Below, in pieces: positions 4,706-6,880 of a stretch of 36,641 bases of DNA (its first letter is position 1; every line of letters begins with the position of its first letter). Both the position numbers and the translations under genes were made by a program. Under the pieces are notes generated by a model. That model ran no database searches. It was not told the origin of the DNA and saw only the letters and a program-made list of their open reading frames with translations. Origin of the DNA: Lachnospiraceae bacterium (lineage in GTDB: Bacteria; Bacillota; Clostridia; Lachnospirales; Lachnospiraceae); the NCBI GenBank assembly GCA_017387565.1, contig JAFOEY010000001.1:1-36641 (forward strand), read 5' to 3'.

Positions 4706-4794
4706 AGGTATAGGTTTCTTAAAAAGAAACACACTTTTAGAAAAGATATATAAAATATAAAGAATACTATATAGAAAAATAGGAGGAATGTTAC

Positions 4795-6834
4795 TTGAAT
4801 CATTTACCATTAAATGTTCGTGTTCCAATCGAAGAAGATAATCCGAGTATTGTTCGTTTGGAAGAAAAGTGTATTAAATGTGGAATGTGTAAGGATGTAT
4901 GTACAAATCAGATTGGTGTACATGGAACATACACATTCGAGCAGACCTGTGGTGAGGCAGTATGTATCAATTGCGGGCAGTGCGCCAATGTATGCCCGGT
5001 AGACAGCATAACGGAAAGGTATGAATATCCTGATGTAAAGGCTGCAATTAAAGATCCTGAGAAGGTTGTAATTGTCAGTACATCACCTTCTGTAAGAGCG
5101 GCTCTTGGAGAAGAATTCGGTATGACGGATGGCAGCTTTGTACAGGGAAAGATGGTGGCTTTACTTAGAAGACTTGGAGTGGATTTCGTTCTTGATACAA
5201 ACTTTTCTGCTGATTTAACTATCACGGAAGAGGCGAGCGAGTTAATCGAACGAGTAACCAAGAATACTGCTCCGTTGCCACAGTTTACAAGCTGTTGTCC
5301 CGCATGGATTAAATTTGTAGAGACATATTATCCGGAGATGATTCCGAATATTTCAACGGCAAAGAGCCCGATTGGAATGCAGGGACCAACCATTAAGACG
5401 TTTTTTGCTCAAAAGAAAGGGCTTAAGCCGGAGAATATTGTTAATGTAGCTCTTACACCATGTACGGCCAAGAAGTTTGAAATACGCAGGGATGAAATGA
5501 ATGCGGCAGCAAAGTTCCTGAAAAAAGATGGTATCCGGGATATGGATTACGTTATCACGACAAGAGAATTGGCAAAATGGGCAAAGGAAGAACAAATTGA
5601 TTTTGCCGGTCTCGCAGACAGTGATTATGACGATTTCATGGGAGAAGCATCCGGAGCCGGTGTTATTTTCGGTAATACCGGTGGTGTTATGGAAGCGGCA
5701 CTCAGGACGGCATATGAATTCATCACCAAAGAGAAAGCACCGGAACAACTATTTAATCTTACCCCTGTCAGAGGATATGAAGGTGTCAGAGAGGCAACTA
5801 TAACAATAGGCGATTTAGATGTAAATGTTGCTGTTGTCTATGGTACTGCGAATGCTGGAAAACTAATAGAGCAGATAAAAAACGGAAACAAACAGTATCA
5901 TTTTATTGAAGTCATGACTTGTCCCGGAGGCTGTATCGGAGGCGGTGGACAACCTAAGGATATTATGAAGGACAAGGATGAAGTCAGAAAAGCAAGAATT
6001 CAGAGTTTGTATACGAAGGATGAAGCGATGACTGTCAGAAAGAGCCATGAAAATCCTGATATTACAAGAATATATGAAGAGTTCTACGGTGAACCCTTAA
6101 GTGATTTGGCAGAACAAATGTTACATACCTCGTATGAGGATAAGAGTGGAATATTAAGCAAAAAAGGAGAAAAAGAAATGAGTAAATGGGTTTGTAGTGT
6201 ATGTGGATATGTTCATGAAGGAGATCAGCCACCCGAACAGTGTCCTTTGTGTAAGCAACCCGCATCGGCGTTCAAAAAGGAAGAGGCAGTAGCATCCAAG
6301 AGTAAATATGCAGGAACAAAGACAGAGAAAAATCTTTGGGAAGCATTTGCAGGTGAATCACAGGCTAGAAATAAATATACATATTTTGCATCGGTTGCAA
6401 AGAAAGCAGGATATGAGCAGATTGCAGCATTATTCTTGCAGACGGCTGAAAACGAGAAAGAACATGCCAAGCTTTGGTTCAAGGCTCTTGGCGAGTTGGG
6501 TGATACAGCAGAAAATCTTTTGCATGCGGCTGAAGGCGAAAATGCTGAGTGGACAGATATGTACGAGAGAATGGCAAAAGATGCAGAGGAAGAAGGATTC
6601 CCTGAGTTAGCGGCTCAGTTTAGAGGTGTTGGAGCAATTGAAAAACTCCATGAAGAGAGATATCGTGCATTACTCAAGAATGTAGAAGCAATGGAAGTGT
6701 TCAAAAAGAGTGGAGTAACAATGTGGGAATGCCGTAACTGTGGTCATGTCGTTGTAGGGCTTGAGGCACCGGAGGTTTGTCCGGTATGTAATCATCCACA
6801 GGCTTACTTTGAAGTTAGAAAAGAAAATTATTAG
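4795..6834 (+). CDS. [FeFe] hydrogenase-rubredoxin-rubrerythrin fusion
   Basis: The protein has 679 residues. Residues 26-67 hold two 4Fe-4S ferredoxin motifs (CxxCxxCxxxC). The H-cluster domain follows, with TSCCPAW (165-171), TPCTAKK (221-227) and [16 protein letters not shown] (Cys376 and Cys380). From residue 462 there is a rubredoxin-like CxxC pair of motifs, then a ferritin-like di-iron domain ([27 protein letters not shown]) and a second rubredoxin at the C-terminus. It should couple H2 to reduction of peroxide or another oxidant through the rubredoxins. TPC and TCPGGC replace the usual MPC and ACPGGC, as I recall for group B enzymes. Translation starts at TTG, 8 bases after AGGAGG 4781-4786; the nearby ATG 4788 is out of frame. 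Confidence 0.93.
6164..6180 (+). promoter_or_regulatory. internal ribosome site and ATG at the rubrerythrin boundary
   Basis: AAGGAG at 6164-6169 stands 8 bases before an in-frame ATG (6178) that begins [13 protein letters not shown], exactly the first residue of a complete rubredoxin-rubrerythrin. It would give a free 218-residue rubrerythrin in addition to the fusion. Confidence 0.6.
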
Positions 6835-6846
6835 TTAGTCTGATGA

Positions 6847-6880
6847 GAGCAGTGTAAGGTTCGATACACTGCTCTTTTAG
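6847..6880 (+). terminator. intrinsic terminator of the hydrogenase fusion gene
   Basis: A perfect 10-bp stem (GAGCAGTGTA with TACACTGCTC), an 8-base loop and TTTTAGTTT lie 12 bases after the stop codon. Confidence 0.9.

Follow-up and report, generated by a model that had tools for sequence, protein, structure and literature searches.

The window, a stretch of 36,641 nucleotides from a Lachnospiraceae bacterium (contig JAFOEY010000001.1 of assembly GCA_017387565.1; genome G000 below), holds a 679-codon open reading frame (ORF) on the + strand. It runs from TTG 4795, the first start in frame in a program-made ORF list, to TAG 6834. Over the NCBIfam cut-offs it matches a group A [FeFe] hydrogenase at residues 19–388 and a rubrerythrin at residues 504–679. 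The hydrogenase (HydA) and rubrerythrin (Rbr) domains share one open frame, and the H-cluster ligand motifs L1, L2 and L3 are all intact (table 1). The name HydR was given to the chimera of C. perfringens (CperHydR, CPF_1076), which was purified and carries out H2-dependent H2O2 reduction (JACS 2025, PMC11926857; here and below, from parts of that article). CperHydR and the window's gene agree in domain order and in the L2 letters TPCTAKKFE. The two rubredoxin centres and one diiron site reported for CperHydR are predicted here too, while the general L3 motif in that article reads MAC where the window has MTC.

The two halves of the gene meet between the Fe_hyd_SSU domain (residues 395–450) and the first rubredoxin-like domain. 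The preliminary description had placed AAGGAG, 8 bases and an in-frame ATG at this domain border, opening a 218-residue frame that begins MSKWVC; the sequence and the domain matches bear out both claims to the base. The 8 nt spacer lies at 6170–6177, and the nested 218-codon ORF is in frame with the 679-aa ORF and shares its stop, TAG 6832–6834. The anti-Shine–Dalgarno duplex energy at the border site is −8.9 kcal/mol, against −6.4 for the best of the 17 other internal ATGs. The gene has at its domain border an in-frame start codon with a ribosome site and, as the comparisons below indicate, one that is conserved at the DNA level.

Two other accounts of the locus were rejected. A frame error or sequencing artefact is contradicted by a 98%-identical open frame in G086 and by more distant ones in further genomes. 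For a private promoter of the Rbr part, no + strand promoter-like site was found between 4600 and 6600, in a scan of little power because it returned 8 sites where 6.4 are expected.

Table 1. Features of hydR and its borders in the window (positions count from the first letter of the window).
Feature	Position	Strand	Basis
Shine–Dalgarno of the full-length product, AGGAGG	4781..4786	+	sequence reading; 8 nt before TTG 4795
hydR, [FeFe] hydrogenase–rubrerythrin fusion, 679 aa, TTG start	4795..6834	+	ORF list, domain and NCBIfam matches; domain order as CperHydR
Hydrogenase part, residues 1–450: two 4Fe-4S sites, H-cluster domain, small-subunit domain	4795..6144	+	Fer4, Fe_hyd_lg_C and Fe_hyd_SSU matches
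H-cluster motif L1, TSCCPAW	5287..5307	+	sequence reading and alignment
H-cluster motif L2, TPCTAKKFE, letters identical to CperHydR as quoted	5455..5481	+	sequence reading, alignment, PMC11926857 (part of text)
H-cluster motif L3, MTCPGGC	5914..5934	+	sequence reading and alignment
AAGGAG, predicted internal Shine–Dalgarno; in the fused protein part of linker KKGEKE	6164..6169	+	sequence; DNA-level conservation across HydR
Predicted internal start codon ATG, at domain border	6178..6180	+	sequence; start codon in 41/45 HydR clusters
Nested ORF, predicted free rubrerythrin (rubredoxin–diiron–rubredoxin), 218 aa, MSKWVC...	6178..6834	+	sequence, domains; stand-alone genes L096, L105, L108 alike
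N-terminal rubredoxin-like domain, residues 465–494	6187..6276	+	domain match
Rubrerythrin diiron (ferritin-like) domain, residues 512–627	6328..6675	+	domain match
C-terminal rubredoxin-like domain, about residues 644–673	6724..6813	+	RUBY_RBDX; borders set from invariant Cys 646, 649, 662, 665
Intrinsic-terminator-like stem-loop 3' of the gene	6845..6876	+	consensus match only; 2 found vs 1.5 expected in scanned region

The domain border in relatives of hydR

How widely is this border site kept? Relatives were searched in overlapping draws of 397 family, 392 order and 391 class genomes and among the best 80 of 544 loci from a named scan; genes whose HydA was at most 50% identical, or whose Rbr core was less than 45% identical, were left out before counting. 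The 62 HydA–Rbr single-frame ORFs so collected form 45 clusters (single linkage, 93% DNA identity); the cluster statistics ignore kinship, and HydR clusters are related by descent. L018 is the downstream piece only of a frame broken by a TAG in the hydrogenase half, and L062, L065, L120 and L124 are truncated at the end of a contig or locus. G086, of the window's genus, carries two HydR copies, on contigs C21 and C34, which are 98% and 86% identical to the window's.

A start codon stands at the border in 41 of the 45 clusters, as ATG in 40 and as GTG in L050, where the Shine–Dalgarno (SD) is kept. An SD motif lies 7–11 nt upstream in 39 of the 41, with a spacing of 8 nt in 24 of these 39; no listed motif is found in L071 or in L062, which has GGGG at −8.1. 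Four clusters have no usable border start: L064, L119 and L124 lack a start codon (L119 retains AAAAGGAGG), and L068 has GTG with a weak SD. The two Clostridium-labelled fusions differ, C. cadaveris (L076) having TTAGGAGG with ATG and a Clostridium sp. MAG (L064) being one of the four; hydR of C. perfringens itself is absent among the best 80 of the 544 named-scan loci.

The mean anti-SD energy of the 41 border starts is −9.0 kcal/mol, compared with −2.6 for the other internal ATGs of the same genes, and comes near the average of −10.0 for the full-length starts (best-scoring candidate of each cluster, n = 44). An energy of −8.5 or lower is reached by 33 of the 41 border starts but by 16 of 840 other internal ATGs; at −7 or lower the figures are 36 of 41 and 4.5%. 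The five weaker border starts are L015, L021, L022 and L043 at −5.9 and L071 at −2.9. No internal ATG rivals the border site in 31 of the 42 scored clusters (L068 included), and at least one equals it in the other 11.

Fusions of HydA to rubredoxin or other modules without this Rbr served as controls. Five of seven have no border start with SD. In L026 and L027 there is a border Met, preceded by weaker SDs (−7.4 and −5.6), and the linker of L133 contains one GTG, no SD and no ATG. L067, in which a hydrogenase is fused to a different rubrerythrin-like module (about 30% identical), has no border start and forms a natural contrast to HydR. A 962-aa single frame joining hydrogenase, rubredoxin and a glutamate-synthase-like domain occurs in L072 and L027/L153 (Robinsoniella peoriensis and G179).

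Is it the DNA or the encoded linker that is conserved? Over the 41 border starts the SD core falls in codon phase 0 in 29 (with a GGA codon, e.g. AAA GGA GAx) and in phase 2 in 10 (spanning AAG GAG or similar codons). Because the SD is written in two codon phases, the encoded residues vary (KGE, KGD, KGG, LGG, KEE, KED, EKE) while the SD stays, and 35 distinct hexapeptides precede the border start. When the same peptides were shuffled over synonymous codons the mean energy was −6.6 against the observed −9.0, and 0 of 2000 shuffles were as low; the Fisher combination of the per-gene shuffle tests gives p = 7e-5, weaker than the pooled test. Of the 39 glycine codons in the site, 37 are GGA, where 15.6 are expected, and two are GGG; at 38 conserved Gly columns outside the site in these genes the GGA fraction averages 0.38 with a maximum of 0.78. 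RNA folding at the border ATG is weaker than the mean of the other internal ATGs in 40 of 40. Finally, the border Met is followed by A, S, T or G in 33 of 40, as against 194 of 760 for other internal Mets; a small second residue is the pattern of real N-termini that lose their first Met.

These five sequence-based tests agree that the site has been kept at the DNA level. It had been proposed at the outset that a lack of conservation of AAGGAG at positions where the protein tolerates other letters would speak against an internal start. The GGA excess, the two phases and the 35 hexapeptides indicate the opposite, a motif conserved beyond what Lys-Gly-Glu codons need.

Age of the fusion and exchange of partners

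The window's genome has the same arrangement in a second, unrelated gene: at L002:1509-1527 on contig C45 (the same gene as L139) a rubredoxin/glutamate-synthase-like/Rbr fusion of 687 aa has AAAGGAGG, 8 nt and ATG at its Rbr border. Altogether the border site recurs at the Rbr seam of three other, unrelated kinds of fusion. Under a fixed rule, an energy of −7 or lower is found at 11 of 13 distinct borders of rubredoxin/glutamate-synthase-like–Rbr fusions and at 15 of 18 of ferredoxin–Rbr fusions. Among flavin reductase–rubredoxin–Rbr fusions, for which only Mets adjoining the diiron core were considered, a border ATG is present in 12 of 21 (in 11 with an energy of −7 or lower) and absent from 9; the donor parts L007, L112 and L212 are not among the 21. 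These nine have no other start, except a GTG in L192, 11 residues upstream of the core. In the three fused non-HydA classes and the stand-alone class, entries are distinct by border DNA only and not clustered, and four unclassified rows are left out. The counts keep the fixed rule's result in L164 and L090, where it took a later Met than the domain-border sites (−11.1 and −8.9).

If rubrerythrin is found behind so many donors, how did the junctions arise? In the flavin reductase family several stages coexist. In L112, L212, L218 and L219 one or two stop codons ahead of the SD separate flavin reductase–rubredoxin from Rbr; L212 has TAA where the fused L210 has AAA, with SD and ATG downstream identical. 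Two glutamate-synthase-like/Rbr loci are split as well: two TAA codons interrupt L230 without a change of register, and in L149 the gap between the parts is longer. In L220 (G026) the SD and ATG of the Rbr are intact, and all that precedes them in frame is the rubredoxin end of a flavin-reductase donor, a match that holds one TAG; no flavin reductase match was found in the upstream DNA examined, and L220 is possibly a decayed fusion. The stop-loss route is real in this sister family. Separate genes, fusion with an internal start and fusion without it may be taken as snapshots of one path, on which HydR is apparently stable in the middle state. Because 9 of the 21 flavin reductase–Rbr fusions lack a border Met, the second product would be dispensable in some lineages; and because the partners of Rbr modules have been exchanged more than once, some of the sites still present may descend from separate genes without having been maintained.

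These split genes lend weight to the strongest rival reading of the window's gene, namely that it is a recent fusion by stop-codon loss between two operon genes with the old ribosome site left over. On the HydA tree the label 'Rbr fused' requires 15 changes or more, so that gains or losses of Rbr are frequent, which also counts for this reading. The age of the HydR fusions argues the other way. In seven clades (32 members), hand-chosen from the trees, mean HydA fourfold-site identity is 0.35–0.53, where 0.25–0.40 would be random, and despite this divergence all 32 members keep start and SD motif. The Rbr core of the window and that of L098 are 99.4% identical as protein but 39% at fourfold sites; short protein branches are therefore no sign of recent joining. 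A leftover would also not account for GGA in 37 of the 39 glycine codons at the seam.

Of 38 HydA ORFs without an in-frame Rbr (four of which have 36 nt or less of downstream DNA), none has a separate Rbr ORF downstream in the DNA examined, bar the second piece of L018; L077 has a separate Rbr upstream of HydA. No stop codon between HydA and Rbr was found in close relatives among the HydA loci examined. Most of the Rbr has been lost in L024 (G100, about 1445–1495, − strand), where its last 13 codons remain behind the hydrogenase stop. L066, also a near relative, likewise has the hydrogenase alone.

In a tree with many weak branches, the Rbr modules of hydrogenase, flavin reductase, ferredoxin and stand-alone genes are interspersed, and yet HydA and Rbr distances are correlated (Mantel r 0.65, 0 of 2000 permutations, 41 genes). 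Taken with the label changes, this indicates that partners have been swapped and lost while many fusions have long been co-inherited. The preliminary description had offered recent fusion, with the old start still visible, as its alternative; with the site kept in far-diverged clades and no HydA followed directly by a separate Rbr among the loci examined, that alternative fares poorly and we regard it as unlikely.

One gene, probably two products

We conclude that the seam site is probably a working start. Our preferred reading, to which we give a probability of roughly 0.8 on comparative sequence evidence, is that the gene encodes two proteins, fused HydR and free rubrerythrin, through two translation starts on one frame. 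This was the first of the two possibilities raised in the preliminary description, and the comparisons support it well. Ribosomes that start at the TTG would yield the 679-aa fusion; ribosomes that bind the internal AAGGAG would start at ATG 6178 and yield a free 218-aa rubredoxin–diiron–rubredoxin protein. Both products would be made. The shorter one would reduce peroxide as rubrerythrins ordinarily do, with other rubredoxins as donors, and it may also pair with HydR, one donor domain then serving several diiron sites. Rubrerythrins dimerise, which makes a mixed oligomer of HydR and free Rbr attractive; the abstract of PMC11926857 models CperHydR as a homodimer, and parts of the same article report that an engineered Rbr-only deletion of CperHydR reduces H2O2 and that the overpotential of its hydrogenase shifts by 400 mV with oligomeric state. 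The authors' inference that the two halves fold independently also suits a free rubrerythrin.

Could G000 obtain the free protein elsewhere? No stand-alone rubredoxin–diiron–rubredoxin gene was found in this genome. Its other Rbr loci are the second fusion, the stand-alone L003 without an N-terminal rubredoxin, and the distant L005 (200 aa), whose only rubredoxin is N-terminal. The internal start may thus be the sole source of a free protein of this architecture. Stand-alone genes of that architecture do exist: L096 (Eubacterium oxidoreducens), L105 and L108 have both rubredoxins, are 84–87% identical to the window's module and carry their own ATG in the same place, with weak SDs of −5.8 and −6.4 in the unfused L105 and L108.

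A different role for the SD-like stretch would be to slow the elongating ribosome between the domains and so aid folding, with no initiation. The position suits such a pause, since it lies between two domains that the authors of PMC11926857 infer to fold independently (in the parts of the article cited), and L119 has its SD-like stretch and no start codon. A pause, however, needs neither the start codon nor the 7–11 nt spacing, the small second residue and the unstructured start region that are all seen; and such a site is missing from five of the seven HydA fusions that lack this Rbr. A pause without initiation is in our view a decidedly poor prospect.

Might only the free rubrerythrin matter, the fused read-through being incidental and the gene really two cistrons? 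The internal start is an ATG with SD, while the full-length start in the window is TTG. Moreover HydE, HydF and HydG have no match over curated cut-offs in G000 (99.5% complete; the window is its contig C41), and with the maturases missing the hydrogenase half may be poorly active. On the other hand, this two-cistron account predicts that HydA genes with a stopped or out-of-frame Rbr behind them should be common, and the set contains none. The 62 fusions were selected as single frames, so that openness of the frame alone is no proof of selection; it is the absence of stopped or shifted HydA–Rbr junctions, expected to be common if only free Rbr mattered, that makes selection on both readings the simplest account. 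Linker length ranges between 8 and 63 residues, purified HydR is active in its fused form (parts of PMC11926857), and the H-cluster motifs are intact in maturase-less genomes. Two cistrons thus appear a shade less probable even than a pause. Least credible of all is a constraint at the protein level, by which the fused enzyme needs a linker Lys-Gly-Glu-Lys-x-Met and AAGGAG is a codon by-product: KG(E/D)xxM is common to many relatives of the window's gene, but the 35 hexapeptides, the two codon phases, the 37 GGA among 39 Gly codons and the change of ATG to GTG (Val) in L050 all oppose it.

The missing maturases bear on the activity of the hydrogenase half in this host and leave its standing as a HydR by architecture untouched. 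In 34 genomes searched for them, 28 have HydR; at the curated cut-offs, 11 of these 28 have all three maturases, four a partial set (G086 HydE only, G515 HydF only, G671 HydE and HydG, G362 HydF and a partial HydE) and 13 none (G000, G213, G063, G003, G284, G019, G037, G132, G350, G698, G459, G497 and G639). Completeness is 96% or more in nine of the maturase-less HydR genomes besides G000. Genomes with and without maturases alike have intact H-cluster motifs in their aligned HydR genes, the broken L018 of G037, whose hydR has the in-frame TAG in its hydrogenase half, not being among the aligned rows. The gene had been described as encoding an H2-linked peroxidase. The intact motifs speak for this and the absence of HydE, HydF and HydG from the genome against it, so that the H2 linkage is uncertain, and unproven in the window's species because the three maturases are missing at curated cut-offs. 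Either maturation proceeds by unrecognised means, or the hydrogenase half does its work with no organometallic part, e.g. as a ferredoxin-like relay. Nothing on hydrogenase domains in maturase-less genomes was found in a non-exhaustive literature search that included parts of PMC12578642 and PMC10711303. With 13 of 28 HydR genomes lacking maturases and the motifs intact, the question is by what means, if at all, the cofactor reaches these hydrogenase domains. G000 also encodes a 513-aa hydrogenase-like protein (L004, contig C49; TSCCPSW, GPCASKK, MACPGGC) that resembles group B by motif reading, and a 670-aa hydrogenase-like protein (L006, contig C2) whose C-terminal half is chemoreceptor-like by sequence reading.

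Nested starts of this kind have precedents in the CheA short form, IF2 and ClpB. In the parts of PMC11899642 cited here, Cas11b arises by internal in-frame translation within the cas8b gene; like hydR as we read it, cas8b has one gene, two in-frame starts and a C-terminal short product, with mixed complexes of fixed stoichiometry possible. Unlike Cas11b, the predicted short product of hydR is a complete enzyme, also occurs as a separate gene, and stands behind four unrelated donors. The flavin reductase–rubredoxin–Rbr genes (L098, L210 and others) resemble hydR in having SD and ATG at the Rbr border, in frame behind an electron donor, but differ in that split, dual and start-less fused forms coexist. 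The short form of CperHydR is an engineered deletion, whereas that of the window is the predicted native product of an internal start; the words 'start codon', 'ribosome binding' and 'truncat' are absent from the main text of PMC11926857.

The HydR fusion (PMC11926857, in part) and nested in-frame starts that give a C-terminal subunit (PMC11899642, in part) are thus already known. In a mostly open-access literature we found no report of internal translation of rubrerythrin, of an Rbr fusion with a Shine–Dalgarno, or of HydA–rubrerythrin domain work in Lachnospiraceae, and the word rubrerythrin is absent from the part consulted of a paper on accessory domains of [FeFe] hydrogenases. We did not find in print the conserved internal start of HydR, its recurrence at Rbr borders behind unrelated donors, or the series of split, dual and fused forms.

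A broader proposal, which we advance tentatively and at rather less than even odds, is that rubrerythrin acts as an autonomous unit of translation in Lachnospiraceae and related Clostridia. It would stand behind at least four unrelated donors (hydrogenase, glutamate-synthase-like flavoprotein, flavin reductase–rubredoxin and ferredoxin) with its own ribosome site and with both readings selected. Tethered and free Rbr would then meet in mixed oligomers, one donor feeding several peroxidase sites, and the translated ribosome site would double as a protein linker.

What would two products mean for HydR? Work on it so far has treated it as one chimeric enzyme. Should native cells produce free Rbr from this gene as well, the physiology of HydR, its oligomers and the preparations made in E. 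coli from native codons would need re-reading, for E. coli should recognise such an internal site. And since split genes, fusions with an internal start and fusions without it can all be found among rubrerythrin loci, the origin of multidomain proteins by loss of a stop codon becomes testable.
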